Assembly: GCA_033439265.1 (NCBI GenBank)
Contig: JAVTVX010000012.1
Coordinates: forward strand, 4,081,001 to 4,145,000
DNA length: 64,000 nucleotides
Origin: Dillenia suffruticosa
Taxonomy: Eukaryota > Streptophyta > Magnoliopsida > Dilleniales > Dilleniaceae
Reading direction: 5' to 3'
Part shown: one piece after another, positions 20,216 to 63,419 of the stretch
Position numbering within the stretch: position 1 is the stretch's first letter
How the letters are laid out: each line of letters starts with the position of its first letter
Translations under genes and position numbers: made by a program
The notes under the pieces: generated by a model
Told to the model about the DNA's origin: nothing
Database searches by the model: none
Seen by the model: the letters and a program-made list of their open reading frames with translations, nothing else

Positions 20216-20642
20216 AAGAATAAGAAAAGAGACATCTATTTTGTGTGAGATTAATTTGACTCAAAATTGATTGATCTAAACAAGAAAAAATGACATTGGG
20301 AAAACAAATAGCTAGCATATAATGTTCATCATACGTGTTGAGCCGAGCTAGCATTCTTGCCCATTGTGGCCCTCTTTTCTTTTGATACTTGATTATTGAT
20401 ATTTAAAAATTTGATTGATTCAAATCGAACAATTTTGTGACCCCTAATTTAAAGGTCGGTTCTTCTATTATCTATTTTTCTATTTTCAAAACTCAAATTC
20501 GAGATTTTTATTAACATATATCACGCTTATATCACACACAATAGGATGTTTCAAGGTTGACAATGCTACATAAAGATAGGGTTCTAATAAAATCATAACA
20601 GATAATGATACATTAACATCTTTCTCTCTCTCTCGCTCTCCA

Positions 20643-20907
20643 GTTGTGATCTCCAAAATGGCCTACACCAGGGCTGTGACCGGGAGTTGTAGGCCTTATT
20701 TCGTCTCTTCTTTCACCTACACCATGAACTCTATAATTCTTCCTCAACAGAAATTTTCTTGTATCATCCCGGCCCTTCATTTAATGCCCTTCAATGCCAA
20801 CCTCCAGATCTTTGCTCCGTACCATGATATCATGGGAGATGAATGAAGATGTTGGAACTATAAGAGAAGAACATATTGCTACAACCAGGAAACATCTTAA
20901 TAGCCAT
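20643..20907 (-). pseudogene. CEP precursor pseudogene with intact peptide motif
   Basis: The minus strand keeps a perfect CEP domain, EIRPTTPGHSPGVGH (20702-20658), followed by FGDHN. In the same frame upstream there is a signal-peptide-like hydrophobic run (FLVVAICSSLIVPTSS), then a basic variable region. Three lesions are seen. The only ATG at the expected place is one frame off, so the hydrophobic run has no start. A TAA stop falls in the variable region at about 20783. The stop expected after HN reads TGG, so the frame runs on about 14 codons. A short in-frame ATG just after the TAA could still start a leaderless 45-residue peptide, which would not be secreted. It is the lowest-coordinate member of the CEP array. 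Confidence 0.8.
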
Positions 20908-21809
20908 AACTAGCGAACTACTAGGTTTACATACAAAATCTAGTACCCGCACTTCACCACTTATACACATGTACACTGGTCATACAAATGAAATAAATTC
21001 AACTAATTTTTAAGTACAAATTATAATTATTAATTTATTGGAGGAATGGGTAATGGTCAAGTGGGTTAGTCAATTCCTAAGTGCAATCAAATGGGCCAAA
21101 AACAATTATTATTATTTTTTAAATATCAATAGGAATCTAAGCTATTTATTAATTAAGATCATCATGCTATCCAAAAGTGATAGCACGAGGCACTGTCTAC
21201 AGGTGCGACAAACCCTTAGAATAGAAAGGTAAAGCATTTAGAGAAACCTACAAAAACACTTTGTGGGGGTATCTGAATTTAAAACCACAAAAGGTATCAT
21301 TGTCAAGGTATTGAAAAGGATCAAAGTGGGGTTTAATTTTTAATGATTTTTTTTCTAATATTTTGAGGTTTAAACTAACTTAACTAACACTATGCATGTG
21401 TGGTGCACGTGGGGGCTAAATAAACTTTTAGAGCTTTTCAAATTTTGAATCGGCATTGCAACTTTAAGATTCCAACTTTACGGCGTTGAATTTATATTAT
21501 ATTTTATTACTCAAGATAATTATAAATTTCTTTATATAAATTATACAGTGATAAATATGCAAATAAAGAAGAAAATATTGTTATGGTAAAATAAAAAAAA
21601 ATGTGAAATTAGGCTGATTTGAACTTACTTTGTGATAGGTGTTTTTACGTTAATTTTATTGCAAAAATTTGTATTTGCTATAATTCATATAAGGGCTGCA
21701 TGTCTTTTCCATTCTCCTTTGGCCTTTGCACAATTCTCTTTGTCCCTTATATTTAATTTGTGCTTTCTGTACAATGTTGGGGCTTTTGACCTCGAATTTT
21801 GAAACTCTC

Positions 21810-21846
<37 letters not shown>

Positions 21847-22723
21847 GAGTCCAGATACATTGATAAGGAGTAATCTTCGATGCCTTTGCATTCAAGGTTC
21901 AGAAAAATGGTATATGCTCCAAAAATGCTAAAAGGGCCATAAGATCAACTTATGAAATTCGCATTGGTGGTCTGTAGTGCACAATCGTACCACATACATG
22001 TGACCTTTTACAAGCAAAAAGGGTTGAAACATATGAAAACTAATACATACGTATATATATTTTATCAACGGATATTCGATTTAGTACAATACAGTATTAA
22101 ATATTTTAATCAAGTCTCGAACTTGAAATTTGAGAATAAAAAAAACTATGATGGAATAGCCATTCCCTAAATAGGGTCTCCACCATGTTTAAACTGGACT
22201 AATTGGAGTATAATTCGGATATTGGTGGTAGAAAAGAAAAACATATGTATATTAAAATACTTTTGGCAGAATACCTTTTTAAGCATGTAATTTCATTCAT
22301 TACAAGTTCAATAACACAAAGATACTTATAAGTGGGAAGAAGCATATGCTTTGGTATATGGCCAATTTGAGGGACATTTGGCCACATGCAACCACAGAAT
22401 ACATGACAATATCACCTGTTGTGGACTCGCAATAGACTTCTCATTGAAGTGCTATTTTGTAAGGAGTAAAATCAATTTAAACTTAATTAGAAAAAAAATT
22501 AGACTTAGAAAGAGTAAGCTAGTGCATGAGACTCCTCACCTTCTCATTGAGAGGGCGAGGAGCTAGGGAAATAGAATTAAGTACTAATTCAATAAATTAA
22601 TTACATTTTGCTGGAAAAAATATATATATATATATACTTTTTACACTCATAATGGAAGGTAAGACAAGGAGTTTTGCTTTAATTTCTTTCACCTGGCTAC
22701 ACTACATATACAAAAGAAGGGAA
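20908..22723. other. Intergenic DNA between CEP loci
   Basis: AT-rich. It contains a (CT)n run at 21812-21843 and a copy of the dispersed repeat at about 22107-22216. No gene seen. Confidence 0.5.
22107..22216. repeat. Short dispersed repeat, copy in the CEP cluster
   Basis: It shares 'tttgagaataaaaaaa', 'cctaaatagggtctc' and 'aattggagtataattcggat'-like segments with 28634-28756, and in part with 4375-4480. No coding capacity. Confidence 0.45.
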
Positions 22724-23005
22724 TTAGTTGTGAAGAGAGTGGCCAACACCGGGACTATGACCAGGAGCTGTTGGTCGAAAATCATCCACATTTCCTTCCT
22801 TAATATAATTAGTTCTGTTGCTTGTATACTCTTGTTGTGAGCCATTCTTGTTTAGCTCACTGCCCTTTACATCGCCCAAAGATTTGATATCTACATGCTT
22901 TGGACATGCCTTGCATAACCTTGGCTTCAAATGCTGTCTTCCCTCGGTTGATACAATTTCATGACACAAAATTATTATAAGAAGAAAAACACCAAATTTT
23001 GACAT
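22724..23005 (-). CDS. CEP peptide hormone precursor, single domain (93 aa)
   Basis: An intronless ORF starts at ATG 23005 with a hydrophobic signal peptide (FGVFLLIIILC, residues 4-14). A variable propeptide follows, and a C-terminal CEP domain DFRPTAPGHSPGVGH (22783-22739), then SLHN and stop TAA. In the CEP family the precursor is secreted and cleaved to a 15-residue peptide. Prolines 4, 7 and 11 are commonly hydroxylated, and CEPR-type LRR kinases perceive the peptide. The propeptide is unusual in having a basic Cys pair (CKAC, near residues 31-34). A TATA-like TTTAAATAC lies 100 bp upstream. Expected roles, by family, are nitrogen-demand signalling and root architecture. Confidence 0.93.
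   Translation of the reverse strand: MSKFGVFLLIIILCHEIVSTEGRQHLKPRLCKACPKHVDIKSLGDVKGSELNKNGSQQEYTSNRTNYIKEGNVDDFRPTAPGHSPGVGHSLHN
22739..22783 (-). other. Mature CEP peptide region DFRPTAPGHSPGVGH
   Basis: Fifteen codons in the minus-strand frame. All invariant CEP positions are present (F, R, P, T, P, G, SPGVGH), with Ala at position 6 and His at 9. Confidence 0.9.
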
Positions 23006-23104
23006 ATTAGAGAGAGTGAGGGGTTGGGGGGCTTATGAAACTTCTACAATACTTGCCTAGCGATGTAAGAGAGAGGTTGCTTGAAAACTCTTTGTGCCAC
23101 TGTA

Positions 23105-23113
23105 GTATTTAAA
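23105..23113 (-). promoter_or_regulatory. TATA-like box of the 22.7-kb CEP gene
   Basis: TTTAAATAC in sense orientation, about 100 bp before the ATG. Matching boxes occur at similar distance before the three other intact CEP genes. Confidence 0.5.
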
Positions 23114-23119
23114 GTTTCT

Positions 23120-24634
23120 ATGCAGGAGAAGCACACATTTGCAAGGCCCTCAATAGTGGGAAGATTCCCTAGGGCAATAACATGATAGATATACTAAAGA
23201 AAGAGAGGAAAAAAAAAGTGATAAATAGAATGGCTTAATAGTTTAAAGCTTTCAAAGCTCTACATTCCAAAAAATTTGAAGATTTAGTCAAGCCTAGCTA
23301 GTTGTAAATATTCTCATGCCTCATGCCTCATGCCATATGAAAACTACATAAATCACCCTTTCATTGAAATACTATTTTTTAAATAACAAAGTGATAATGC
23401 ATTTAATCTCTTTGTTAAAAGAGTTTGAATTCAATTCTTCCCATTAAAAATAGGGTAAGTAGGCAAACCGTTATTACAAATTACGCCCTTATATCTGATT
23501 GATATTTGAAATAGTTGTGTAAATTTATTGAAAATAACACTTTTTACTGACCAAAGATCATGCCTTTTTTTATCTTGCTAATGTTTTAAAACACCCACAA
23601 AAATTTCTTGAAAATATCACTCTCTCTTCTCAGATTTTTCTTGCATCCAAAGAACAATGTGTCATGATTTAATACAAAGTTATGAAAAGAGAAATCATTG
23701 TTTAAAGCTTGACCTACAACCATTCACTTAAACAATACCATTAAATTTCAACAGACCTCCAACGCCATTGCATATCTTCGATCAAGATATCATTCAAAAG
23801 TTTTTCAAAGTCCTCTTTCACCTTTCAAAGGCTCAAAGGTTGCAAATTAGTATATTATATAAATCATGAGATCGAGAGCTAAGTGTATTAGTAGCTTGCC
23901 ACTTACTCTGTAATGCACGCTTTTCTGCCACCAACCGCAAAAAATACTGCTTAGCTAGTATTTGGACGGTTCCCTGCAAAAGGTTTAGACCTTCTTTAAC
24001 TTTTTTTTTTCCGAAGTCGACAGTCGAGAAACCTAACTTTACAACCAAATGTATGCAAAAAAATGTAGTAGGGTCCAAACATAGAATCAGTAGTTTATTT
24101 TCAGGCTCCAAAATGATCATTAGCCCACCAAATGAAAGCACCCAAAGACTGCTCGCTGTTAAAGTTATGAATTATAAAATAACACGATCAAAATAGGGTT
24201 TTTCCTAGCTTGCCGAGGCTAGTGGGGCACTGCAGCTATAAAGGTTAATACAAATTAGTGCAAAGTATTGTGTGTAGTACAAATGTCTCAGACAAAATTT
24301 AGTGAGCCACAGCATTCATTTTCTAGTTCACTCCAGTCTTATTCCATTGTGATATCTTTTTGTATTATAGGGCGGTTGATGAAGGACCTTTTTCTTTCTT
24401 AAAAAATAATAATGATAACAAATCTTGGTAGACATTTGTATGCCTGGGATGCATTGCAGGACTTAAGAAAATGAGTTATGCTTATCTTCTCTTCCTATTC
24501 ATCAAACATGGTTATGATGCATTTTAATTCACTAGATCATTACATAAAATGGCAAAACGCCTAAATCCGCTCTAGTAGAAATAAGAGTAAAATGGCTAAC
24601 AAGAATGTAAGCCAAGCTTGTTTTGGAAATCAAA

Positions 24635-24670
<36 letters not shown>

Positions 24671-25991
24671 TCTCTCTCCCCACAATTTTGAAAAGCTTTA
24701 TCGTTTTCTATTTTGGAACTTAATAATATTTTTCAAGTGTTAAGGTTGAAAGGAAACAAAAAGCTAATATGGGAGGAAAAAAAAAACTTGTAATGATTTT
24801 CATATTTTATATAAGAAAAGATTGCTACGTAGAGAGGGCAAAAACGTCTGGTTACTTTTGGTGGCAAATTGTTCCTTTTTATCGTCCTGTCCTCCATCCA
24901 TCTTTCCAAACAATAGGTAGCTTAAAGGAAAATGAGGTACTTTTTTTTTTAAGTCGAATAATTTTTTTTTTTTAATTTGAATAATTTTAAACTAGTTAAA
25001 ATATATTTTAAATTTATTAATAAAATAAAATATAGTAAGATAAATTATCTCATAAAGATTTACTTCATAAATAATTTAATTCATTTATTATTATACTTTT
25101 CGGACCATATTACTCTTCCATGGGGCATGGGCCATATATGGAAACTAGTAAATTAATAATTTAAAAAGCAGGACATAGGGTCGGCCCATGATACCAAACG
25201 CCAACAAAAAGCATGCTCTCTCTCTCTCTCTCTCTCTCCCCAACTGGTTCCATAGTCTGAGGAACAGCTCCCTCTCTATCACGTTGATTACGAACTCAAA
25301 AATGTAGAAACGTAGCTGGTGAATAATTGTTAAGATTCTCCCGCAGACATTTAGGTCAGAAAACATGTGCCTGCTGTTTTTTTTCCCGCACACATTTTAA
25401 CTTATCATTGGGAATATTATGAGGTATATAGTTTGTATATATATGGAACAATTTTTATAATGTTATATCAAAGAAGAAAAGAAAAGGCAAAAATTTCTTA
25501 ATTAATGTCTTGAATTTGAGTTTTGAAAATAAAAAATAGATATCGTAAGAATTAATTCTTAAATTAGACTTCACTGTACTTGAACTTGATTAGTCAAATA
25601 ACACGAATACCTATTAATTAATAAAAAGAAAGATAGTAATTTGTCATTTATTTTGTAAAACTTGTAAAGGTATTTTGCTTTTATAATTCTTTCATTTCTA
25701 ATAAGTAGCTCTTCTTATTCTCTTAATATATTCTCATACAAGCACATTTTGGTCAAATTGGCAAATTCTCATATTAACTTCGAGCTATATGGTCTATATA
25801 GGTTTTATGCGTGCATGTAAGCGTGTGCAGGAGCCTCAGAGAGAGAGAGAGACACACACAAAGAGAGAATAGTTTTACTTTTACATTACAACGTACTTAA
25901 GCAAATAAAAAATGACCTTGAAAATGAAACATTCTCTCGCATAAGGGGAAGAAGAACAATTTTACAAAGTGCATGCATGCATTAAGTTCAC
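23120..25991. other. Intergenic DNA between CEP loci
   Basis: AT-rich, with (CT)n runs at 24638-24660 and 25215-25238. A 102-codon minus-strand open frame at 23833-24141 resembles nothing I know and is probably chance. No further CEP motif found. Confidence 0.5.
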
Positions 25992-26255
25992 TTAGTTGTG
26001 AATGGAGTGGCCAACGCCAGGACTGTGACCGGGTTTTGTGGGTCGAAATGCATCCTCACTTCCATTATCTGTTGATTCAACTTTTACATGGAAGTGACTT
26101 GAGGCACCTACATTATTTACTTTGCTACTTTTGGGTTGACGAGTCGTGCCTTTGTCATGCTTCTTCCTAGACCTTAAACTCCTCCCTTCAAGACAAAGGA
26201 CATCACTGGATAGGATTATAACTAGAAAAAGCAAACAAGCACAAAGTTTGGCCAT
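25992..26255 (-). CDS. CEP peptide hormone precursor, single domain (87 aa)
   Basis: An intronless ORF with ATG at 26255. A signal peptide at residues 1-22 (ACLLFLVIILSSDVLC) is followed by a basic Lys/Ser-rich propeptide. The C-terminal CEP domain is AFRPTKPGHSPGVGH (26051-26007), then SIHN and TAA. Lys at position 6 and Ala at position 1 distinguish it from its neighbours, so its mature form is more basic. A (GA)n run at 26306-26329 (CT in sense) lies in the presumed 5' UTR. A TATA-like CATAAATA is at 26390-26383. Length and layout are typical of the family. Confidence 0.93.
   Translation of the reverse strand: MAKLCACLLFLVIILSSDVLCLEGRSLRSRKKHDKGTTRQPKSSKVNNVGASSHFHVKVESTDNGSEDAFRPTKPGHSPGVGHSIHN
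26007..26051 (-). other. Mature CEP peptide region AFRPTKPGHSPGVGH
   Basis: Fifteen codons ending just before SIHN-stop. Residue 1 is Ala where Asp is usual, and residue 6 is Lys. Confidence 0.9.
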
Positions 26256-26382
26256 GGCTAGTGAACGAGTCTAGGAGAAAAAGTTAGGCAGAGAGATTGA
26301 GAAAGAGGGAGAGAGAGAGAGAGAGAGAAACCAAAGGGGAGCCCGGAAGATACTTGCACTTCCACCCCTTCAAGCCATGGGG

Positions 26383-26390
26383 TATTTATG
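26383..26390 (-). promoter_or_regulatory. TATA-like box of the 26-kb CEP gene
   Basis: CATAAATA(CC) in sense orientation about 130 bp before the ATG; compare TATAAATACC before the three-domain CEP gene. Confidence 0.5.
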
Positions 26391-26394
26391 GTGT

Positions 26395-29300
26395 TCAAAA
26401 GGTAAGTGCCAATTCCCAACGCATGTGAGGTCCCAAATGTCAAGGAAGATTCCGCACCTTGAGCTGCAATTTCATATATTGAATAAATGCATGGGCTAGC
26501 TGGTTAGAGAGGAATATGCTCATCCATTTTTTTTTTAATAATAATTTGGAGTTAAGGGACATGATATTTGGAGTAAAATGTATAAGATTAAGAATATGTT
26601 TAAAATATTAAAATTTCAAATTTCAAATAGAATTCTAAAATTATGTGATATGGATATATTTAAAATTTTGTATAATTCAGGTTATGATACAAATGGAATA
26701 AAAAATATGATTCTAAAAAAACTAGTGTATGAAAAAAAAATAGAAGAAAAAGCTACTCTTAGGAGTCTCTCCAAAGCTTCATTTTCTATTTTTTTTTTAT
26801 AAAAAAAATGCTATTTTTAAAAATAAGAATTTTTGTTCGACAGAATTTCCTTTTATAGAAAGAAGAGAGAAGTTAAAAAAAAAAATTCTATCAATTGGAC
26901 ACTGAATTGGAAAAACCTAACGAGAATTCCTTACTTTTTCTTGTTTTAAATGCACACTTTATGGAGATATGATTCAAGTGCGCCCATTCACACGCAACGG
27001 GAGGGGAATAGAGGCAGCTATCCTGTTTCTTGAAATTTTAAGAAATAATTTTGACAAATACAATTTAAAAAAAAAAATTATAATTTTATATATTATTTGT
27101 ACTTTTAAAAATTTATTACTATGTTTTGTTCCCCTAAAGAGAAAAATTATAATTTCTCTTCGACCCTGCTTTGTCCCCATGAAGAACAAAACTTGCCCCG
27201 TTAAGGATTGAATTTTTCGCCTCCCCAAATAAAACCCTTTTAGCTTTGCTCTTAGCTCTGTTGCTATTACTAAAAAATTTAATTACCGGCAAGCAAATAT
27301 TTCTGGTTATTTTTTCTTATTTTCATCATTGATATTTAGATTTTATTCGACTAATCCGATTCGAGTACTATGAACTCATTTTAGAGATTGGTTCTCCTAA
27401 ATCTTTTTTCGTCATTCCTAAAACTCGAACTCGAACTCAAAATTTCTGATTAATAGGGTAGAGTGTCCAATTGCTCAATTCAAAAGAATCTTATGACAAG
27501 CAAATATTTTTCACTGTTATATGATATAAAGCTGTTATTTTGTTTTTAAGAGAACAGTTTAGTAATCACAATTCTTCTTCTCTAATTCTAAGATTCAGGG
27601 ATTCGAATATTTGTCTAACAATAAAAAAGTTGTCATTTTTCTCCCAGAATCAATTCATAATTTGATTTCTTTCTAGTGTAATTCTTTTTTAAGTCATTTA
27701 TCTTTCTACCCTTGGTTCTTCTTTTGTTACTTTTTTTTTTTTAATATTATTCCTATTTGTTTCTATTATTTTCATTTGAGTATATCGCAGATCCTGGGTC
27801 AGTCACATTCTCTCGATTATTTTATTTTATTTTATTTTATTTTATGTATAACCAGTTTGGCCGATAAAAGAACATTTTTTTTTTCCTTTGTATTTCTATT
27901 TGATTAACTCTATTTTTGATTTGTGATGATAGATTTGTTTGCGATACGTTGAGTGTGTTTCAACTGGTAGAGAAAATGTCAGTTCAACTTTCATTATTCT
28001 ATATAGCCTTTACATTTTGCACATCTAAACAAAAACCTTATTTACTAGAATTAAAAAAAAATTGTTTTTTATTATTTATTTATATAGCCAACGATACATA
28101 TAGAGAAATCCCTTCTGGGCATTTTGGACCAGCTCTATAGTTGGCCTGAATTTTATATATTTCGTGAAATTAAGCAAAAGCAAGGGCGGGTGACCCAATA
28201 TCTTAACCTCCTTCCACAGTATAAACAAAATAATACAATATTAGTAAATAATTAATATTTAAGAAAATTAAAAAAAAAAACAAAAGAAAAAGTGGGGGAA
28301 AAAAGTGAAGGGACAACAAGTGGGTGCTTTCACTGTGCATAGCTGACCCAAAGAAAACACAAGAGGGCAGGATCCTTCAGGGCTTTTGCTCCTTCTCCCT
28401 AGTCCCCACTATACCACATGCCCTGAAAAAAATAATTATAACTGAACGGTCTTCCTTGGAGATTTGAATCAATAGTCAAATTTATGGGCATTTGGACTCT
28501 AACTACTTAAGATTCCTTTTCAGTTGATTAAATACTAATTTCACTTTATTTAAATAAGTTTATGACCTCTGCCCTTCACTGGAATCCCCAAAATACAATA
28601 ATGGATGGTGGGCAGATAAAATATTAGATTTTTTAATCAAATCTTATATTTAAAACTTGAGAATAAAAAAAATTACATTATGAGAGTTATCTCTTAAATA
28701 GAATCTCATAAATAATCAAATCGTATTAATTAAAATATAATTTTGGATACTAAGACAAAAACACACATCATAAAAAGGGACAGCTGAAAAGGGAGCTGCA
28801 CATGCCCTGCCAAAGGACCCAGACCGGCATATGGGCCACCCTCAAGTTTGTTGCTTTGGGTGTGTAATATTTTTGGTTTACTATTAATATTTGGTCAAAC
28901 AAATTAAATTTTATGTATTTCATCTGGAGTTAAGTATTGCTATACGAAGCAAACGATTCATAGATCTATTGAACTAAATCTTTCAAATTTAGATAATTTT
29001 AAATTAATTAAAATATTTTATAGATTAAATAAAATGATTTTAAAAATATATTAAAGTAAACTACAACGCACCATGTGATCCACGATCCATTACAAATCGA
29101 GGATTACTTATTTAGAAAATAAAGATAAAAATAACTCTATTCTTGTCTTGAAATATGGATTCCATAATTCTCGAATTGGATCAGTCTGATAATCCAAATA
29201 TCAGTTAATCGATATAAAAAAAATTATGGCAATAACTTCTATTTGATAAAAATTTACTAATTAATCTAAATCTACCACTAGAGTTTAAGATAGATTGAGT

Positions 29301-31996
29301 TGAACCAATTCTAATAAAAAAAATTAAATATTAAGAATATAAGAGAGTAATGTGACTATTCAATCAACATGCATCACATTTAACCCAAGAAGCAAGTTAA
29401 AACCATTTTCACCTTGGTCGATAATATCAAACACAGACAGAACATGTAGGCACAGCAGATTTCTATAATTCTCGTGGATATCGATATTCATGCAATTTGT
29501 GAACTTAGATACACGTTCTGTGGTCATTAACTTTTTATGAATAGGAATTAAAAAGCTCCATAAAAAAAATAATATTCATAATAATTTTTAAAATAATTTA
29601 AACGACTCGTCGACCATAAAAGAAGTCATGAGAAAGAGGAAGAACTGTCAACTGCCAAAATAAATAAATAAATTAGTAAATGTGAATCCAGTTAATTCAT
29701 GAGAAGGAATCCTGGGTAGACTAGAGAAGATGAAATGGGGTCGACGAACCCTTACATGATTCAAAGGGTATATACCCAACTTTTTGCTGTTTAAATTTCT
29801 GCGGCTGAATTTTTTAACCTGTTTTGCCAGCTAAAGCATACAAAAGGGTTTTGGCTTCTTTAGCACATCACTTCGTATCCACTATTAATTAAGAAAAAGG
29901 CCATGGAATCTCCACATTTGTAAAATGCTAAATTAAAGATTTAATAGTACGAGGAGGAATCAATGTTCACTTGACTTTCAATCTCACATGTGGAAAAGGG
30001 TTGGACTGGTCGAGAACCTTTCAAGTTGTATGCTAACCATCCACTATCTCAGCAATGGATAGTTGATCTATTAAAAAAAATATTAAAATTTTTAATCAAA
30101 ATTCAGTTTTAAATTTTAATAATAGAAATAATTACGTTAGGAGAACTCTTCCGATAAATAATTTAACAGTAATTCAAATCAAATTAATTTAAATATAATT
30201 TTAAATACTAATTGCGTCTAAAAACCATACCACATTGGACCAACTCTTCATCCTAGTTTTATTTATACTCAAGTGTTCACTTCATTTAAAGAAGTACGTT
30301 GTTTAAGAAAAGAAAAAAAGTCATTATTGGGATTTATTTGTTGTCGGAAAATAAATTATATATAGACATAAATGAGTTGCATTGGAATCTTGAAAGCAAT
30401 ACATTAAAATTATCTTATTTGTTTGTAAATCTAGCTAGGTATGTCCAGATTGTAAATCTATTAGATCAGACCTATAAATAAATTTTAATAATTTTTATAA
30501 CTCTTATCCTAATATATATAATTAACTATATGATATAACTTATATTTTAAATATATTTTATATAAAATTAAAGGATGCCCCCAGTTTGGTATGTGATTTG
30601 TGTAATAAATTTGGAGTAGTTAATAATGATCTTTCAACGATGCCTTGGCACATTGGCCTTCGCTTACCTAAAATATTAGGGCCAACCCCCTTGGGTGAAA
30701 TGGGTAGAATCAAGTTTTGGGCTATAACAACTTTATAATTGAATATTTGATGAATTTAGCAAAGTGGTGACAACACCTTAAGGAGGTCAATCTTGTGGGA
30801 TTAGCATACTTGTAAGTTAGGCCTCCGTAAATATTTCCCTAGTGTAAGTCAACACTTTGGTGTTGATCCTTGTGGCATCGACCTAGAGACACCAGTTGTT
30901 ATAGAATAAAAGGATTTCCGTCAATGAGTTAAAATCCTTTATTATCCCTTATGTTTTTGCAGATTTTGCTGCTTACAATCTCATTTAATTATATTTATTG
31001 AGGGAACAGGCAATTTTGGTGAAAATCCGAAGTTTGGATCCTCGTGGAACAAAAATTTTCTAGAGGTAGAAAATTACCAATATTGCCTGAACTTGAACCA
31101 GGCTGGGAGCCTAGTACAGTGCCAAATTCTTAATTACTATCTCAATATGATAGGTAGCCTGTGCTATACAATCCCAAATTACCAAAGCACCTCTGACAAT
31201 CTGGATAAAAAAGTGCAAGTTTATGCTAATATTTCCCCATTTGTTTCCCTCCTTTTCTATGCATTCATCTATATTTCTTCTTCAATAAAAATTAACACGT
31301 GGAAACACTTTATTTAAAGAGAAAGAGCTATTTATCACTAGAAGATCAAATCGTAATATAATTGAAATATCAAGGATGAAATGACTTGAGATGTTACAGT
31401 TCACTTTAGTCTTGCATCAAAAGAAAGATGAATGATCACATGATATAATAAATATGCCATCCTGGTCACGTGTAGCATGGTTTTGCATGCATCTATTCTG
31501 CATAAAAGATACTTAATTGTACAGTATCATAACAACAATGCTCCTGCACAAAAAACTATCTAAGATATTCAAGGCACATAAACAAAGCATTAATAGAATA
31601 AAAAGGAAGAAAGAGGATGAAGGAGTCCAAGCTTGTTTTTATTTCCTAAACTCCGGGTTGCAAGAATGACAGAGTCAAAGTTTGTTTTTCCTTCATAAAT
31701 TCTATGTTGCCATAAACTTGATGGATTTCCACAAGCTTTTGACACACACATACACATACATTTATGTCTGGATACCAGCTTATGTACAGAAATACATGAG
31801 AGAGAGAGCAGTTTAAAAGATATTTATTTCATTAAATAGGCTTGAAGCAGACAGTGACTTATACAAGGAATCAGTTACATGGACAGGAAAACTATGGACA
31901 TGGAAATACTTGTCTGCTGGATATCCTATGGATCTAAAGAATGAGAATACACAAGACACTAGCGGCCAACCCGTACATACTATATTCTATACACGC
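26395..31996. other. Intergenic DNA between CEP loci
   Basis: Long AT-rich gap. It holds another dispersed-repeat copy (28634-28756) and a more decayed one (about 30093-30210). A less AT-rich block at 30560-31100 has no recognised coding content. No CEP relic was found by eye. Confidence 0.5.
28634..28756. repeat. Short dispersed repeat
   Basis: It shares 'cttgagaataaaaaaaatta', 'cttaaatagaatctc' and 'attaaaatataattttggat' segments with 22107-22216 and about 30093-30210. Confidence 0.45.
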
Positions 31997-32668
31997 CTAT
32001 GGATTCATATCTGCAGATGTGGTGGGGAGTGAATGACCAACTCCAGGGCTATGACCTGGTTCAGTGGGTTTGAAATCCTCTGCATCTCCTGTAAGAAGAC
32101 TTGTACTAGAGCCATTAACTAATGCCTTGGATTGATGAGTTCCTATGGATCCTACAAAGGCGTGGCCAACACCAGGACTGTGACCTGGTGCCGTAGGTTT
32201 AAAATCTTCTGTAATTCCTGCGACAGAATGATTATCACCAAATCTATTACCTTGTTCTTGTGTTATAGTGTCTTTTACAAAGGAATGACCAACACCAGGA
32301 CTGTTACCTGGTGCTGTTGGTCGAAAGTCATCTGTATCAGCTTCAGGCTTATTGTCAAAGCCGATGACCTCTTTTTGTGCATCTTGGAACAAAGTTTCCT
32401 CTTTCTGAGGAGTTAATTGAACAACACGGGGAATGTGGTTTGAGGTGGTGGGTGGAAGATCTTTTTGTCCTGCTGGGTTATGGTGGGAGTTGATAGGTTT
32501 GGTTTCAGCTTCCATGGATACAAGCTCTCGCTTGTTCAATGACCTTATAGGCCTTGCCTCAGCAAATGGAATGTCATGGTGGTTAACTAGTACAAAAAGT
32601 AAGGCACAGAAATGGATTTTGGTTATAGCTAGTGAAGGGCAACTGTGGAGAGATTGAACTTTGGCCAT
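31997..32668 (-). CDS. Three-domain CEP peptide hormone precursor (223 aa)
   Basis: An intronless ORF with ATG at 32668. The signal peptide occupies residues 1 to about 38 (FCALLFVLVNHH, then a likely cut after FAEA). A propeptide of about 75 residues follows, then three CEP domains in the C-terminal half separated by 26- and 28-residue spacers: DFRPTAPGNSPGVGH (114-128), DFKPTAPGHSPGVGH (155-169) and DFKPTEPGHSPGVGH (198-212). Each is preceded by an acidic D or E and followed by a hydrophobic or Ser-start spacer. Multi-domain CEP precursors are known in the family. Here the three products differ at positions 3, 6 and 9. The terminal tail (SLPTTSADMNP) is longer than in the neighbours. A TATA box is about 120 bp upstream. 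Confidence 0.94.
   Translation of the reverse strand: MAKVQSLHSCPSLAITKIHFCALLFVLVNHHDIPFAEARPIRSLNKRELVSMEAETKPINSHHNPAGQKDLPPTTSNHIPRVVQLTPQKEETLFQDAQKEVIGFDNKPEADTDDFRPTAPGNSPGVGHSFVKDTITQEQGNRFGDNHSVAGITEDFKPTAPGHSPGVGHAFVGSIGTHQSKALVNGSSTSLLTGDAEDFKPTEPGHSPGVGHSLPTTSADMNP
32033..32077 (-). other. CEP domain 3, DFKPTEPGHSPGVGH
   Basis: Lys at position 3 and an acidic Glu at position 6. Followed by a Ser/Thr-rich tail to the stop. Confidence 0.9.
32162..32206 (-). other. CEP domain 2, DFKPTAPGHSPGVGH
   Basis: Lys replaces Arg at position 3. Followed by AFVGS. Confidence 0.9.
32285..32329 (-). other. CEP domain 1, DFRPTAPGNSPGVGH
   Basis: The only domain of the cluster with Asn at position 9. 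It keeps Arg at position 3. Confidence 0.9.
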
Positions 32669-32788
32669 GATTCAGGAAAGGGAGAAGTAGCTTTGTTATC
32701 AGACACAAGAGGAGTTGAAGAAGGATGTAATGCAAGAAGGAAAAGGAAGAGGTGTAAACACAATGATGTCTTCCTTTCCTAGGCTTGG

Positions 32789-32796
32789 TATTTATA
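32789..32796 (-). promoter_or_regulatory. TATA box of the three-domain CEP gene
   Basis: TATAAATA(CC) in sense orientation, about 120 bp before the ATG. The best consensus box of the cluster. Confidence 0.6.
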
Positions 32797-32799
32797 AAC

Positions 32800-35700
32800 T
32801 CTGGACCTCACACAGTGAACATGATTATTAGAGTTTTTTATTCATTCATATATCCCTGACCATGTTCTATTATCATTTGAACCGCAAATTGTAACATAAA
32901 GAAGATCTTTAAATGTCATATTTGGAAAGTCAAGAATGCCACACTTGATGATCTTAACATCACACGTCCTTGTCATTCTTTCCCCTGTTATACTCTGTTT
33001 TTGTTTCATAATTTTTGTTTCCCTCCCAGATATTTGTTTTTTTTTTTTTAAAAAAAATCATAAAATAATGTAGTCATGAACTGATTCAATATATTTTGTA
33101 GCATAGTAATCATTTGAAGCTTGAACTTGATCATTGGTTGTGTAGTGGCCTTTCATTTTTTTGAGATGCTGCTTTAGTGTTCAAACATCATAAGAGTGAT
33201 AATCAATTTACTGCAACTCATTTCCCTAGATGGAAGATCTGAACCATGGTTGTTTTGAATAACGAAACTGAGCCACAGTGTGCTGGTTGTCCCACCACTG
33301 AGATGTACCAGGATTCCTCCCACTTACGTAGTTTTTCTACTATTCTATGTGGATGGTTCATAGCAAGCTTAGAACTCTTTTGGTCAACAAACTGAAGTGA
33401 TATTCATCTGTCTTTGCCCTGTAGCTTACTTTCAAGGTTTTAAATGAGCCGCACAATTGCTTAGCGGTTGGCTGAAAACATCAGGACACACCTTGTAGTT
33501 AGTGAGCATCAAGAGAATCTTCCTTTTATAGCACTATTACTAGCCCCTGAAATTTCAGTTGACTCTTATAGATTTTCATTACAGGGCATTAACAGTGTAG
33601 CTAAACTAGTTATTCTTTCTTTTGAGGATCACCGTCCAGCAGAAAGCTGTACTATGCTTAAAACTTGTTTAAGCCGAGTTCTTCTCATATGTGGAGTATG
33701 TGGAGCATAATTGGGAAAAATAATCATTACCTGTCAGATTATTAAACACTTGCCCTTCCATGTTTGAGGCAGGGAATAAAGCACTTTGTAATTTTCTGAA
33801 TTTTAAATGATCAATCTTCCGAGTATTGGGTAGAAAAAGTCTTAGCCATCTGCCTCTGTTCATCATTTTAGTTTTTTATTTTCTAATTGTGAGTTGCATT
33901 TTTGTTTCACATTATAGAATTCCTCATTATTTTTCAAAATGGACTTTTATTGTCCCCTTTGCTTTCAACCCAAAATCATTTAATCACTGCTGCTTAAAAT
34001 GCGTGTAACTTGTTCCCCGTGATTTTGGATGCTAGAATATAGCTTTTGTTGTTAAATTGCTTCTCTTCACATGACCCTCTTGTGGTTTGATTCAAAAGAA
34101 TTTATTCCCTTTGTGGTTTCAAAAATATCTCAAATTGCCCTCTTTGCTTTTTGTGTCTCAGTAAATGACCCCCTCAATCGGATCCTTCGACCAGTAACAA
34201 AAGCAGAGGGCTCACTTTTCCTAGCAGAGGCAAGCATAGTGGAGGTGCTGCCTCCGATGTGCCTGTACCATGGTCAAAGCTCCACGATCTTGACACATTG
34301 TGAGCCGCAGGTTGGTTAAGTGATTTTGGGATAAAGCACAGGGGTTAAGCGAATTTTCCCCCTTCGAAATTGATGAAGACTTAACACATTTTCTACGTCA
34401 TTTTGAGAGAAAAATTGTAGTCTTGTGCTTGGCCTATTAAATAGATTTCAGTCGGTGCTATTCAGTGTTGGAGATGCATGAATCAGCATCTTGGTGGCGG
34501 ATCTGCAACTCTATATCATGGTAAGTGGTGTTTTTATTTCAAAACTTTGAAGTTTGAATGATTATTTAAATTTCTAGAGCTAAATTTACCATTGTTGCTT
34601 GATGTGAAATATAGGTTCATTGAATGATGCTTTAAATTTCTACTGCCAAATTTACCATTGTTGCTTTATGTGAAATATGCAATAATAGCACCAGTACTAC
34701 ATGCTTAGTTCAAATCTGCACTTTGAAAATAATAATTTCAAATCACAATTAAAAACTACCACTGAATGGAAAAGAACACCATGTTAGGAATGGATGGTTT
34801 ATATGACCCCGCCGATGTTTGACCAAATTTTGGTTTTTTATGCTTGAAGATACGAATGATACTTTTCAAGCTTTCGTAATACTAAATATTGAACCCCCCC
34901 CCCCCCAAACGAAAAAAGTTTGAGAAGAATTTTGCGGTTCCAATACGTCTTTGACCATATTATATTATGGGACCTGCCAAAAGAAGTAAACCCTCAGGAG
35001 GAAGTAGCCTCCAAAATGGAGTGTATAACTAAAAGAATTACATTTAAGTCTTTTAGGCAAATGATTCGGTGGTATATGCAATCTGGGCAGAAGAGCGTAG
35101 GCTTAAACATGGACATTGCCTCACTGATACACTTGAGCCCTCTTTGTAGTTCCAAACTAAAATCCCTTCATCCTATCTACTTCAAATTTTTGCATGTGAT
35201 TTCAATCGCAATAGTTTCCAGGATACTGTGAGAAAAGGGTACTCGAGCCAACACTTTGTACCCCGCAGTGGTGCTATATGGTATGAATTTACTTCGTTCT
35301 GTATTAGTGAAACGCATGACCAAGTGGTAACCAGTATTATATGCAGTGAGTGATAAAAATGAGCATGCTTCAGAGTGCCTCTCTGGTGATTGCAAGCCAA
35401 ACATAGTTGATTCAAATGCCGGGTTCATTATGCGTTTTTTTCCAAAATATAATTGCCCACAAATGTCGAATTGCACCAAAGCCACCAACTCCTTGAGGGG
35501 CCCAGCCACTCATCTTTATCACAAATTAAGTCACGAATATTCAATTTCTACCAGGTCAAATGAAGCTAATGATGAACCTGAAACTGCCGTGCCTCAACCA
35601 TCTTCTCTCTCTCTTTTAGGGCATAATAAAAATATGTAGATTCTTTTCAAAAGTACGGTCTCTGGTTGGCTCCTCAAGTTGGGGAACCCTCTCCCCAGCC

Positions 35701-37200
35701 TCCTCCCACTGAAGTTAGTCATAAAAAGAAAGATTCCGCACTACACTAGAGAACAAAGTGAATTTGATTCTCTGTTGTGCTAGCCTGTAGTGCACAAATA
35801 TTTGTTTGTAATGATTATTATACTAGGACATTATGTGATAGGAGTTGGGTGATGGCTGCTTTGCAGCGTGACAAGTATCTTACTAGTGCCTTTAGAATCC
35901 AAGTGGTCTGAGATAAAATCTTTACTTTTTGGTCTAGGGGCATTGTAGTTTGTGACGGTCCATACAGTTTATGTGAATTATGATAGTGAACCTGCAGTAA
36001 CGGGGGCATATCAGCTTGTTGAAGAGAAAAACTTTATAGTAGGAGGAATTCGGAATTTAGTACATTGGTTTTATTTGGCAGCCAACGAATAGTGTCTGGT
36101 TATCAAATGCAGAAAAATAAATAACCTGATTCATGTTGCCCCAGTAGATAGTGATTGCTTAACAACATCCTTTACGGAAGAAACCTAATAAGATGTATCC
36201 CAATCCCTTGTAGGGAATGGTATGTAAATTTATAAGATAAATTTTGCCTTTATAGTCCGTGAAATTTTAAAGGATTTTTTTTTGGGTTATGGATTAATAG
36301 GCCAGATGTTGATCTAATGGACAACAAAGTTCATAAAGATTGAGAGGGATGCCTGCTTGGCTGCCCTATAAAAATCAAATGATTTCATTTAGTTTGTAAA
36401 TATAAATACTCAAAGAAATAATACAATTGGAATTCAATAGCTAAACTATTTGGTAGGAGCAAACATTTCTTGCACAGAAAATGGTTTATTCTAACAAAAG
36501 TACCATAATTCACATTGCTACTTGCTTTGTGATAAGGCCACTTATAACAATAGATTTGCATGCAAAAGTGTAGCATAAACCAAAGTGAGTTTAGATTTCA
36601 AACATCGCCTATGATCATTACATAGTTTGTTGAATGATTAGTTCTTGTGGAAGTGCGGGTGATTGGGATATGTTCTCTAATCTTTCTTTAACATACACTA
36701 TTGAGTATATAATAGAACTTTGACACATTTATTCTGCTGGAATTTTCACAGAGGTCACCTTACAGATTTCGTGGGTAAGAAAATTTGGCAGTGCCTTACT
36801 TTCTCTATTTCGTCCAAGTTTATGAAGATAAAAGCAGTAATCTGTTGAGGTGATTGATATGGTATTGTTCATTGAATCTTCTAGAAGGCAAGTGCAATGG
36901 GGTAGCAAGGAAGGTACGGGCTGATTTAACAGTCCAACAGTCTAAACCCTGCTTGCAGTATAACTAGGGCATGTTCTTGTGCAAAGATGCTAAATATAAC
37001 CTGGGAGAAGGCAGTTTTCTGCTCATGTTCTTTACTGTATTTATGTCCATAGCTAGGGCATCAGCATAACGAAGATAGTTTTCTGCTCACATTCTTTACT
37101 ATATTTTATGTCCATGGCTAGGGCATCAGCATAATGAAGATCTCTGCACAAAAGAATTCTTGAAAGCAAGCAGTTGGAGATCACTTACAATAGTCGTTGC
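32800..37200. other. Intergenic DNA, less AT-rich, no recognised gene
   Basis: Several plus-strand open frames of 60-103 codons occur (for example 34920-35231 and 35346-35639), but none resembles a known family. A small direct duplication sits at about 34567-34680 ('aaatttaccattgttgct' twice) and a C run at 34893-34906. The 34003-34350 stretch begins 'gtaacttgttccccgtga' and ends 'agcacaggggttaagc', an imperfect inverted pair that might mark a decayed MITE. Confidence 0.4.
37015..37143. repeat. Tandem duplication, 64-bp unit
   Basis: Two adjacent copies of a unit from 'ttttctgctca' to 'gcatcagcataaYgaagat' with a few mismatches. It lies just downstream of the 3' duplication of the 37.6-kb CEP gene. 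Confidence 0.85.
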
Positions 37201-37220
37201 TTTCATTAAAACTTGGACGC

Positions 37221-37568
37221 AGTACACAATCTGTTGTTTTAATGCCACTTATGAACAGAAGCTCGACAACACATACAATACTGAAATCATACCACCACAG
37301 TAAGCAAGACACATGAAATCATACAACCACAGAAGCAAGACACATACGATACTGCATGCTAGTTGTAAGCATAAATAGAAGGCTGGTCCTAGTTAAGGGG
37401 CACTGAACGCCTTACACAATCTGTTGTTTTAATGCCACTTATGAACAAAAGCTTGACAACACAAAATACTGAAATCACGTCACCACAGTAAGCAAGACAC
37501 ATGGAAGTAAAAGCATGCTAGTTGGAAGTATAAATAGTAGGCTGGTCCTAGTTAGGGGGCACTGAATG
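37221..37568 (-). repeat. Tandem duplication of the 3' end of the 37.6-kb CEP gene
   Basis: Copy 2 (37412-37568) spans the last codons, stop and 3' UTR of the CEP gene. Copy 1 (37221-37411) repeats 'acacaatctgttgttttaat', 'gcatgctagttg' and 'ggctggtcctagtta', ending in a decayed version of the terminal codons and stop (37389-37411). Copy 1 has a further internal duplication of about 30 bp. Confidence 0.85.
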
Positions 37569-37889
37569 CCCAACACCAGGGCTGTGTCCCGGGGTTGTGG
37601 GCCGGAAGTTGTTAGATACTGATGATGGTGGCTGAGCGACCTCGGTGACGTTACTTGGTTCTGTGGTTGAAGAGACGGTAGCATTTGCAACTCTACTTGG
37701 CATGTCAACCAGCAAGTAGCTGCTGTTCTCAGCCGGTTCCCTTGTTTCAACTTTTATGACATAGTTAACATGGTTTTTTGGTGTTTCCTTCTGTTTTAAC
37801 TTGATATGCCGTCCCTTGGTTGGTTGAAGTCCTAGGGACAGAACCAACACAAGGAAAACAAAATTGAGAAGAAACTTCAATGAGGCCAT
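37548..37889 (-). CDS. CEP peptide hormone precursor, single domain (113 aa)
   Basis: An intronless ORF. I take ATG 37889 (MASLKF) as the start; the codon two upstream is GTG, not ATG. The signal peptide at residues 1-26 (FLLNFVFLVLVLSLGL) is followed by a longer Ser/Thr/Val-rich propeptide with possible N-glycosylation sites (NSS, NAT, NVT). The C-terminal CEP domain is NFRPTTPGHSPGVGH (37610-37566), then SVPPN and TAG. Asn at position 1 and Thr at position 6 are its own variants. A (GA)n run at 37895-37926 (CT in sense) forms the leader just before the ATG, and a TATA box lies about 90 bp upstream. Its 3' end has been tandemly duplicated. Confidence 0.93.
   Translation of the reverse strand: MASLKFLLNFVFLVLVLSLGLQPTKGRHIKLKQKETPKNHVNYVIKVETREPAENSSYLLVDMPSRVANATVSSTTEPSNVTEVAQPPSSVSNNFRPTTPGHSPGVGHSVPPN
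37566..37610 (-). other. Mature CEP peptide region NFRPTTPGHSPGVGH
   Basis: Fifteen codons just before SVPPN-stop. Thr at position 6 is shared with the 20.6-kb pseudogene. Confidence 0.9.
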
Positions 37890-41807: not shown

Positions 41808-44800
41808 TCAGTAATCACTATGGAGGAAGCTCTCATACAGTGTTCCCATTAGAGTCTTATTTACATCTTCCCAATTCGCGATGAGTTCAGCTAATGGTCC
41901 TTGGTGGATCTTTACTTGACGACTTGTCAGGCGCATGTGAGGAAGCTTTAGAAAATCCTCGACTTCTAAAAGTTTCTGCTGCAGACAAAGTCATAAAGAT
42001 TGCAATCAAGAAAAGGCTGGCAGGGTTAACCACTATGATGATCCCAAAATTGAAATAAGAGTAAGAAATTTTAAAATAATATATATTCCTTACACTGCGA
42101 TCCTTGACAATATCCTCGTAGTACAACACCATGTGCCTTGTGCTGTTAAAATATTCCAAAGCTTTCATTACTGTCAACTCCACATCCTTAAGATCAGTTA
42201 ACAATGATGATGAATTGATTGTAGGTTTGTATCTGGCTAGTGCATTAGCCTACAAATAAGTAATAAAGAGTTCAAAATCATCCCAAACTTCACAAAGAGG
42301 AGGGGGGTTGAGAAGTCAAGGAATGAGGAAAGTACCTCCTCAATTGAATGCACGTGCGACTTATGGGTCCCATTCAATTGTGGTGCATATCGATCATAGG
42401 AGTTTGCAATCACAGAAAGCATCCTGCGGAGAAGGTTTCTTCGGAAGAGAAATATTGCAAAAACACCTCTTTCATTGAAGTACTTTGCTATTGACTCATG
42501 GTGTTCCATCAATCCCTGAAGTGAACAGAAAGATCAAATTCTACTATTTTGCACCCCAAAAAATAATAATAATAAAAACACAATAATTATCAGTTTTAGC
42601 TACTAGACCACACCAGCAATATACCCTTATCAGACAAAAATGTAACCAGACCAGAGAACTCATTATCTGCAACATTCAGTACATCCATGGTGTAAACAAG
42701 TGCTGAAATTCACTATCAGAATATCCTCTTTTATTTCCATAGAAAACAGCAAAGCCAACCAATTTACTTTACAGATCCAACCAATATTATACTACATCAG
42801 AGGATGAGATCATGAACATCAAGAAGCTAATAGGGAAGCTATCTCCAATATGTAATTATGGCTTCATATTCGCAATCTTATAAGTTCACATGGCCAAAGA
42901 GCATTTTTCTTTTCTTTTTTAAGTCAGGTTTCCTCCATTGCAAGGTCTAGGGAAGGGTAACCTTCTCCCTGCAGGTAGAGTGGCTATTTCTAAGGTGATC
43001 TCCCAGTCACTAAGGTGATCTCCCAGTCACTGTTGCGCCAAGGCTCATCCTTATGAAATTGAAGTTTGCATTTCCTTCCCCACAAAGGACTGTCTTTTGT
43101 TGCCTATTCCCTCTTATTTCTTTATCCACTCTCTCACACGTGCCCTCGGGTGCACGCACACACAAAAGTTTCTCTCCTCCCCTGTGGCTTCTCTTCTTTA
43201 CCCTCTTGGCTAGCTCCCTCACTCCCACATGGTTGACTCTCCTTCCCATTGGCTCCCTTATCTCCAACATTCTGAATCCTTCTGGCCTATAAACCAGCTT
43301 TTAAAAGAGACTTGTGTATCATCTATATCAGTGGCTTAGAAAATCTACAAACGCTAGAACAACTTCAAAATTGCTCTTGTTATTTCCTTATGTGTAAAAG
43401 CCTTGTCAGTCCAGCCACTAGTAGAGCAGCAATATCCCAACATTTCCAAGACAACCATCAACAATTAATCCAGCAAAAAATACCATCTTCTGCAGGGGGG
43501 TTGATAGGGAAGGGAAAGGTCAAAACTCCTTACCGTTTGGAAATCTTTTTCCCTCTGCAAAGAGGAGGGAAGTGATGGGAGGGCTATAATATATATATAT
43601 ATTTTAATGATGTTATTAGTACAATTTTTTTTTTTTTTTTTGGCTTGAAAATGGAAGGGGTAAGATTCAAGCCCAAGTCCTACATCAAAGGAAACTATTT
43701 CAACTCACTTGCACAACCTTTATTACTACAAATCTAATTTCAACGATATGCCAAATATCATTTACTACAATGTGATTTGAAGCAGTCCTGGAGCAATAGA
43801 AATGTAGCCTTATAATTAAAACTCCATTCTTCTATCTAAATGCAAAGAAGATATACAACTTCCTTCCATTCAAGTTTTTAACTAAGCATCTAAACAAGGA
43901 AAGGATACCATATAAATTTTAATTCCCGTTCCATTCTGAAAAAATTCCATAAACACCATAAAAGGATTTTCTATTGAACCATTGCGGGACCAATTATGAG
44001 GGCAAGAAGTGGTACTCCACATACAATCATTGAAGGAGTTGTTCGTATTGGAAGCACTCATGAGATTTATCTTTAATGGTAAATGCATAATCCCATTATT
44101 TGACTTCCTAGATATGCAATGATGGATTGGATCAAGAGCGAAGCCAAAAATTTATTTTTGTGGGGGCAAAATACATGCATGGAATAGTGGGGGCGGACAT
44201 ATTTGTGAGAATAAACATTCTAAAATATTTAGTGGTATCTTTAGGACCTTGACTGCATTCTTATGATTTTTTGTGGCGTTTATAACTTTTAGCAATATTT
44301 AAAAAAATGTACACATTAAATTTTTTCCCAAAAATTTCAGCAGCGGTGGCTGCCCCCCACTGCCCTGATTGTGGCTTCGCCCTTGGGTCGGATCCATGTG
44401 GCCATATTTAGTAACAAGACATGTTAGAACAAACAACTACTGTGGAGCAGGATAAAATATATTCCCTACCTGATTGAGCATCCACTTGAAGCCAATGGCA
44501 GCTAAGCACTGATTCTTGGAAGCACTGGTGAACCAATCCAAATTATAAACTCTATCCAGAGTACTTATAATCGTAGAAGCATTTGCCCTTCTACCTTTGA
44601 CAGAGAATATCTCACCATTGGAGCTAACATTGATATGACTATTTAAAAGTGTCTCAAACCAACCACTTCCAGACCTTTGCATCGACAAAATGGCAAAGTA
44701 TCGGACAGGATTACAAGCACATTCAGCCCTAGTATACAAAATCACGTAAATCAATTTCAAGTACCGAAAACAACTCTAAACCAAGAAAAAAGTATAGCAA

Positions 44801-45689
44801 ATAGCAAATGACACCTGCTAAAAGTTTCCGGTTTGGGATAATGCAAGTTGGGAATTTCGGATTCTTGGACATTCAACTTCTGACAAGGCCTTTGAACAAG
44901 TCGCATACCAACTAATGGAGGATTTTTGTAAGCGTTAGCCTGCTTTAGACAGATTGAGCAGATATAGATGCCACAGGCCATTGCAAAACCTAAGACAATC
45001 ATCCTTAAAAACACCGAGGATGATTTCTTAGGAGGCTTTATAATGATCGTAGCATCCTGAGACCCATTATATAGACAGGGAAAGGTATCAACAACAGGAA
45101 ATCACCAACTGTATATCTTAATAAATTGCAACCTCATCAGGGCTAAAAACATAATAAAGCACTTATTTCTCAGTGGAGCGGCACAGAATATAGAATCTAA
45201 TTATATCATGAACCGAAAAACAAAAACACAAAAGAAAAATCCATTCTGCAGCAAACCCTTACCACCCCCACACCAAGAAAAGGCAAATAAATAAAGAAAA
45301 AAAACCATAAAAAAGGGATAGAGCAAATTCAAGAAAATCCAATGCGGGTTTTCCTGGGAGAGAAAATTATAAGCTTGAAAATCACAAAAAAAAAAAAAAA
45401 AATTCTAATCAAAGTTGAGGAATTTATCAATCCAAAAACTACGTGTGTGAGTGAGCAGCTGTATAATTATCAAAATCAGGAAAAAAATCAAAAGGGGGGA
45501 AAGCAGACATTATTCTTCAAAACCATCTAAACACATTAAACACCCAGAAATTGAAACAACCTGAAATCACTAGAATCTCAAAAAAAAATCTTCAGAACAC
45601 AAAATATCGGAGGGAAATAAAGAAGAATAAGGAAATAGAATGAATCAGAAAGTGATTACCTTGTGGAACAGACAAAGATCTTCGGCCAT
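41808..45689 (-). CDS. Membrane-anchored sulfotransferase-like (NodH-type) protein, six exons, 345 aa
   Basis: Exons on minus: 45689-45660, 45056-44815, 44728-44470, 42515-42336, 42249-42094, 41978-41808. All have GT-AG borders and matching phases. The N-terminus has a short cytosolic head and one membrane segment (VLGFAMACGIYICSICL, about residues 29-45), implying a type II Golgi-type anchor. The P-loop-like motif for PAPS binding is ILSMQRSGSGWFETLLN (about 103-119). A second PAPS-contact region, AIFLFRRNLLRRMLS, lies near 195-210, and the C-terminal half (YYEDIVKDRS, then the VEDFL region) is typical of the family. Plants have a small group annotated as P-loop or nodulation protein H-like. 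The substrate is unknown. The intron between 44469 and 42516 holds a SINE and a MITE. Confidence 0.92.
42930..43055 (-). mobile_element. Au-type SINE in intron 3 of the sulfotransferase-like gene
   Basis: On the minus strand it begins GAGCCTTGGCGCAACAGT, the characteristic A-box start of Au SINEs. A truncated body and the plus-strand 'gggtaaccttctccctgca' segment follow. An internal duplication of 'ctaaggtgatctcccagtca' is visible. Confidence 0.7.
44125..44393. mobile_element. hAT-like MITE in intron 3 of the sulfotransferase-like gene
   Basis: Terminal inverted repeats CAAGAGCGAAGCCA (44133-44146) and TGGCTTCGCCCTTG (44372-44385) pair at 13 of 14 positions. They are flanked by gattggat and ggtcggat, an 8-bp duplication matching at 6 positions. 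The 253-bp interior is non-coding and subterminally G/C-rich. The TIR start resembles the C-A-rich GCGGAGCCA type of hAT elements. The transposase source is not in the window. Confidence 0.75.
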
Positions 45690-63373: not shown

Positions 63374-63384
63374 TTCTGGGGAGA

Positions 63385-63387
<3 letters not shown>

Positions 63388-63419
<32 letters not shown>
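63388..63419. repeat. (GA)n microsatellite in the CTLH gene leader
   Basis: About 15 GA units on plus, CT in gene sense, 15 bp upstream of the ATG, so in the 5' UTR. Confidence 0.9.

Follow-up and report, generated by a model that had tools for sequence, protein, structure and literature searches.

CEPs are long-distance nitrogen-demand signals, and a 64,000-nucleotide stretch of the Dillenia suffruticosa genome (the window; assembly GCA_033439265.1, contig JAVTVX010000012.1, C12 below, positions 4,081,001 to 4,145,000 of the forward strand) carries five CEP loci in a row. The arrangement raises the question of whether such a row holds working hormone genes, whether its members encode different hormones, and how long it has stood. 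The reading adopted here, with high confidence, is a tandem array of canonical group I CEP peptide-hormone genes that came from tandem duplications far predating a segmental duplication of the region, the second copy of which lies on contig C27.

Six-frame translation of the window yields seven domains of CEP type, none of them on the plus strand, in four open frames (A to D) and one broken copy (E) that together extend over 17.3 kb (Table 1). Open reading frames, motifs and profile scan agree with the original prediction of a minus-strand tandem cluster of four intact genes and one pseudogene; the six canonical 15-residue domains it named are all present in A to D, and a seventh, EIRPTTPGHSPGVGH, was found in the dead copy. 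The profile scan in six frames places the seven domains at 36.0-39.3 bits, with the next-best match in the window at 6.3 bits and the best matches in 20 first-order Markov-randomised windows at 4.0-9.2 bits, and turned up no additional CEP member in the window, the search for missed members that had been proposed. The scan profile was derived from the seven matches themselves, and the independent control is a degenerate DNA pattern for the domain core, which has 17 matches in the 596-Mb genome, seven of them in the window, and none when reversed. No CEP model of Pfam-A matched the precursors, A, B and D giving sub-threshold matches only and C none. A comparison of gene C with PDB sequences gave nothing credible (best expect value 0.23), and in bacterial/archaeal and viral collections C had 30 and 11 pattern matches, respectively, with no relative by tblastn; these patterns came mostly from the variable region of C and have little bearing on CEP domains in those collections.

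All six domains of A to D fit the group I form xF[RK]PTxPGxSPGVGH near the C terminus, with Pro-4, Pro-7 and Pro-11 present as group I requires, and Ser-10 and Gly-14, two residues reported as necessary for activity in apple (PMC6387203), are likewise kept in every one. In a published survey no CEP domain is more prevalent than that of A, which occurs in 53 genes across rosids (PMC4197245). Group II CEPs are described as being without Pro-4 and Pro-7 (PMC9739355). The precursors are small, with open frames of 87-223 amino acids and a variable region: between window paralogues the proportion of differing non-synonymous sites (pN) is 0.44-0.55 before the domain compared with 0.03-0.15 among the intact domains, and precursor identity is only about 28-36% in the longer alignments. 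The N-terminal part of each of the four contains, as a putative secretion signal, a hydrophobic core with a value of 2.7-3.6 (Kyte-Doolittle over 10 residues). Membership of the PIP/PIPL family was considered and rejected, as its SGPS core (PMC4526919) is absent and the domains read PG[HN]SPG.

The loci had been called intronless, and to judge from the letters each reading frame is open; the description would hold as far as these open frames and no further. CEP introns are absent in the published tomato set (PMC9562649) and in all but one gene of Brassica rapa (PMC8920145). The statement that no other recognisable gene lies between the loci is borne out by 18 non-CEP open reading frames that gave no Pfam-A match (eight searched at expect values up to 1 and 10 at up to 0.01), these being part of the frames of at least 75 amino acids in the interval rather than every one, and by the lack of Rfam matches and tRNAs at 20-40 kb. 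At the 3' end of gene D, a tandem duplication at 37214-37576 covers the last codons and the 3' flank, in pieces about 76-92% alike. Because no repeat like it was found in C27:4224100-4224900, this repeat is probably younger than the segmental duplication.

The second cluster emerged from a search of the plant's own genome (596,357,000 bases in 37 contigs), in which the window corresponds to C12:4081001-4145000. Window positions 1-63985 are colinear with C27:4189161-4259812, apart from a few off-diagonal or inverted pieces and insertions in either copy, and all five loci A, B, C, D and E recur there in order. The region was thus duplicated as a block, and four of its CEP frames have been retained over the long term: the counterparts A', B', C' and D' read through without a stop for 93, 87, 223 and 115 amino acids, with protein identities of 83% between D' and D and 77% between C' and C, and with the domain of A' identical to that of A. 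C' has the domains DFRPTAPGSSPGAGH, DFKTTAPGHSPGVGH and ELKSTEPGHSPGVGH in an open frame, two of the three having lost Pro-4, a change that most likely occurred in C' because every window domain keeps this residue. Immediately 3' of gene C, a stretch of 120 bp (31835-31951) has an inverted match to C27:4219024-4219143 at 93%, above its surroundings, and C27 carries imperfect inverted repeats around that position.

Synonymous divergence (dS) between the two copies is 0.16 and 0.19 in two long exons of the neighbouring TMEM131-like gene and 0.07, 0.16 and 0.20 in three shorter exons, and the intergenic Jukes-Cantor distance between C12 and C27 is 0.157 at an intergenic identity of 0.858. Between window paralogues, the proportion of differing synonymous sites before the domain (pS) is 0.64-0.83. 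Because the paralogues differ at 64-83% of these sites, the tandem array is, to judge from the distances, much older than the segmental duplication to C27. The colinearity covered by the analysis extends over about 70 kb, and the segmental duplication was probably part of a whole-genome duplication.

The fifth member died twice. In E, the reading frame is broken in the signal peptide near 20892, the start codon lying in a different frame from the hydrophobic stretch FLVVAICSSLIVPTSS, and an in-frame TAA at 20781-20783 interrupts the pre-domain part. The duplicate E' on C27 shows neither of these lesions, its signal peptide and pre-domain part being open, and carries a 5-bp deletion of its own within the domain. 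Because the lesions of E and E' differ, the simplest reading of the two sequences is that the fifth gene was intact at the time of the regional duplication and then died independently in each copy. A model of E as a live two-exon gene was dropped, E' being open across the same stretch.

By analogy with the known CEP family, each precursor would enter the secretory pathway and have its signal peptide removed, after which the prolines would be hydroxylated and the precursor cut to 15-residue peptides, three from C and one each from A, B and D. Made in the root, the peptides would then signal nitrogen demand through CEPR-type receptor kinases.

A divergence of the paralogues into hormones with different receptor specificity, which the original prediction had put forward, is unlikely and found no support. 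The intact domains do vary, at positions 1, 3, 6 and 9; a review attributes to the specificity of individual CEP ligands an influence on the balance between lateral roots and nodules (PMC10773996), and the Medicago CEP7 hormone is reported to give more nodules without a lateral-root cost (PMC10022606). The argument from variable positions is weakened because duplicate copies of one gene differ at several of the same positions. D (NFRPTTPGHSPGVGH) and D' (DFRPTAPGHSPGVGH) differ at positions 1 and 6, the domain of D' now being the same peptide as that of A, and B has Lys-6 and Val-13 where B' has Thr-6 and Ile-13; as far as these alignments tell, a single gene lineage can accept changes at positions 1, 6 and 13. 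A published survey reports high variability of position 6 in every angiosperm family that it covered (PMC4197245). Seven Medicago CEP peptides act alike in the wild type and do not act in the receptor mutant cra2, and MtCEP1, MtCEP2 and MtCEP12 are redundant (PMC8096600). What the array most likely contributes is dosage and control of expression for ligands that are nearly equivalent, not a set of different specificities.

Very improbable is the alternative that the genes are mostly relics, drifting only, with frames that are open by chance. In a neutral simulation (inputs: intergenic identity 0.858; 348 gap openings in 14,928 aligned columns, 82% of them not multiples of three), the chance of the duplicate frame keeping its start and gaining no stop is 0.12 for A, 0.21 for B, 0.04 for C and 0.11 for D, jointly about 1e-4, and with intergenic indels included the values become 6e-4, 1e-3, 1e-7 and 2e-4, jointly about 1e-17. 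Pooled over the four pairs, the ratio of non-synonymous to synonymous divergence between copies (dN/dS) is 0.29 in the domain, 0.72 in the variable region and 1.16 in the signal region, and non-synonymous changes are rarer in the domains than elsewhere (Fisher P 0.005). D, with a whole-gene dN/dS of 0.34, is the only gene constrained throughout.

Several results weigh on the other side, against functional hormone genes and in part for drift. Whole-gene dN/dS is near 1 in A (0.98) and B (1.31) and is 0.73 in C, the Fisher test without C gives P 0.03 only, and the intergenic indel rate used in the simulation may be too high for coding DNA. Coding identity between copies is 86.7-90.1% for A to D and 87.0% for E, so that live genes are not separable from the dead one by this measure. 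The fifth member is dead in both copies and the domains of C' are degraded; given the loss of Pro-4 in two of its three domains, the retained frames need not all make an active hormone. The four 300-bp upstream regions are 87-92% identical between copies, within the intergenic range (mean 85.3, standard deviation 4.3, maximum 93.0, from 41 bins, 31 of 72 having been dropped for fewer than 150 aligned bases), and the upstream region of E is 86.9% identical. Promoter conservation, suggested by a comparison of fixed 300-bp flanks, was withdrawn because alignment against the intergenic background removed the effect.

Hardly credible is an assembly artefact in which copies were collapsed or misplaced, a case the original prediction had raised against itself, or falsely duplicated; nothing was found in its favour, as a whole second cluster stands on C27 in the same gene order at about 86% intergenic identity, the precursors at about 28-36% are too different for confusion, and the window is without any N.

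TABLE 1. CEP loci and neighbouring genes of the window (positions counted from its first letter)
Feature	Position (strand)	Description
CEP gene D	37548..37889 (-)	113 amino acids, ATG to stop; one domain NFRPTTPGHSPGVGH at 37566-37610; profile 36.0 bits
CEP gene C	31997..32668 (-)	223 amino acids; domains DFRPTAPGNSPGVGH at 32285-32329, DFKPTAPGHSPGVGH at 32162-32206, DFKPTEPGHSPGVGH at 32033-32077
CEP gene B	25992..26255 (-)	87 amino acids; one domain AFRPTKPGHSPGVGH at 26007-26051
CEP gene A	22724..23005 (-)	93 amino acids; one domain DFRPTAPGHSPGVGH at 22739-22783
CEP pseudogene E	about 20640..20907 (-)	domain EIRPTTPGHSPGVGH at 20658-20702, still readable
TMEM131-like gene, downstream of array	1859..10668 (-)	two long exons, 1859-3955 and 8707-10668
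Sulfotransferase-like gene, upstream of array	41811..45101 (-)	exon open reading frames
CTLH/RanBP9-related gene, upstream of array	51364..63658 (-)	several exons

The named neighbours of the array lie on the same strand as the array itself. The TMEM131-like gene matches Pfam TMEM131_like_N at 81.4 bits, DUF7579 at 143.9 bits and Ig_TMEM131L_5 at 83.1 bits, each above its cut-off. The CTLH gene, from open-frame pieces joined by eye, matches Pfam CTLH at 39.8 bits (cut-off 26), and its nearest solved structures are GID8 homologues (expect value 0.005). The sulfotransferase-like gene gives Sulfotransfer_3 at 22.6 bits (cut-off 27) and Sulfotransfer_1 at 19.3 bits (cut-off 22), both below the cut-off; it is probably of the SOT19/20/21 type. 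The tested exons of the CTLH and TMEM131-like genes, including the TMEM131-like exon at 8707-10668, match the genome on C12 and C27 only, and the sulfotransferase exon has five matches, on C12, C27, C17, C8 and C21. On C17, a CEP-like gene at 3261138-3261497 lies 24 kb from the sulfotransferase exon (3285221-3285505) in the same strand and order, which supports a putatively old linkage of the two; its domain VDRTTDPGHSPGVGH is without Pro-4 and Phe-2. A close relative of this gene near position 3525452 of C20 ends in ADRPTGQGHSPGVGHVIGTGS, and its domain ADRPTGQGHSPGVGH keeps Pro-4 and is without Pro-7 and Phe-2.

Three further observations concern the flanks of the array. At 10356-10493, in the TMEM131-like coding sequence, 72 bp (24 residues, GLQNSYDGDIKLDYVVDNSS...) are duplicated in tandem and in frame; to judge from how the alignments overlap, C27 would have one copy. 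Fragments resembling long interspersed nuclear elements (LINE-type) at 5615-8011, 56894-57823 and 61153-61587 were probably inserted after the segmental duplication because they fall largely in stretches with no C27 counterpart; RVT_1 scores 48.5 bits, above the cut-off, for 5947-6384 and a weak 21.4 bits for 57144-57440, with no match for 61153-61587. The CTLH exon frame 52457-52804 has a 70% match to C27:4246529-4246852 with two TAG codons inside, and it exceeds the likely exon end.

About as likely as not is the reading that this region represents an ancestral eudicot hub of CEP genes, with an array that included a multi-domain gene set between a TMEM131-like gene on one side and sulfotransferase and CTLH genes on the other, of which Arabidopsis CEP5-CEP8 and CEP9 would be two halves after duplication and loss. 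The reading is suggested partly by presumed gene identities and by gene numbers: At3g50610 is presumably CEP9 and At5g66820 presumably the TMEM131-like gene, the latter not found in the papers searched. At5g66810 is RanBP9-related (PMC4871855) and CEP5 is At5g66815 (PMC4983111), At3g50620 is the sulfotransferase SOT19 (PMC4199319), and At3g50610 is listed beside a CEP among secreted-peptide precursors of more than 200 amino acids (PMC4526923). Because At5g66810 and At5g66815, as well as At3g50610 and At3g50620, are numbered adjacently, the gene numbers suggest that the two Arabidopsis loci each retain part of the neighbourhood around the window array. The C17 segment would, on the hub reading, be a still older remnant. 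Against the hub stand the lack of any TMEM131-like or CTLH match on C17 (for the exons tested), the lack of a sulfotransferase match on contig C20, and a scan of tomato against Arabidopsis in which SlCEP9-AtCEP3 is the one syntenic CEP pair (PMC9562649). Pea CEP genes form no collinear blocks among themselves (PMC9739355). No description of the combined locus, a CEP array with these neighbours, was found in the parts of the open-licence literature searched.

Elsewhere in the genome, CEP searches give lower bounds. The 17 strict pattern matches comprise seven in the window, six on C27, one on C17 and three on C30, and allowing one mismatch gives 26 matches compared with one control match, the nine added sites lying on C2, C5, C8, C11 (two), C12 (two, PIP-type), C20 and C30. 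Protein searches identify full-length D relatives as a pair separated by about 2 kb on C11 (41 and 46% identity) and on C30 (38%), with weak domain-only matches on C5 (expect value 0.87) and C2 (2.2). Among the matches found, canonical CEP genes are most concentrated in the window array and its C27 duplicate. The sites at 4.82 Mb of C12 were rejected as CEP genes, being SGPS (PIP-type) genes; C12:4820799-4834109, about 0.7 Mb from the CEP array, holds a separate tandem set of four small precursors, whose SGPSPGVGH-like motifs would place them in the PIP/PIPL type. At C30:10027400-10040235 lies a multi-repeat CEP gene in decay: its N-terminal part is like D, two FRPT-type domains are in frame, further decayed domains follow a stop, and additional decayed repeats stand at a distance of 9-12 kb. 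The open reading frames between its parts resemble a hAT-type transposase by eye only.

Clustering has been described as possibly a typical feature of the CEP family, and in cotton more than half of the CEP genes are clustered, members of one cluster tend to share expression, and some clusters sit in homologous chromosome pairs (PMC11050269). Clusters of four, four and six genes are reported in tomato (PMC9562649), of up to eight in soybean (PMC11056954) and of three and four in B. rapa (PMC8920145); Medicago has a cluster on chromosome 8 (PMC8096600), and pea has six clustered genes in microsynteny with Medicago (PMC9739355). The tandem arrangement of AtCEP5-8 is also on record (PMC11050269). 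The shortness of CEP genes leaves their relationships between plant families poorly resolved in sequence trees (PMC4197245). Conserved neighbours may help where such trees fail, and if the hub reading is true, position rather than the too-short sequences would give CEP orthology between plant families. Four retained pairs, one member lost twice and a C' without Pro-4 in two of its three domains make a natural experiment on dosage versus specificity in redundant hormones, at a locus that is itself an ordinary, well preserved CEP cluster.

The Arabidopsis CEP5-CEP8 array on chromosome 5 is not known to contain a multi-domain member or a sulfotransferase gene; it is like the window in that tandem CEPs adjoin, by gene numbers, a RanBP9-related gene. 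Arabidopsis CEP9 is multi-domain and presumably numbered next to SOT19, as the window gene C lies about 9 kb from the sulfotransferase-like gene, with D between them. CEP9 differs in having five domains (five motifs; PMC4526919) compared with the three of C and in standing at a separate locus. Cotton, tomato, soybean, B. rapa, Medicago and pea likewise have several CEP genes in tandem or clustered, and the window locus is a further example, from another species, of this tandem arrangement already published for other plants.

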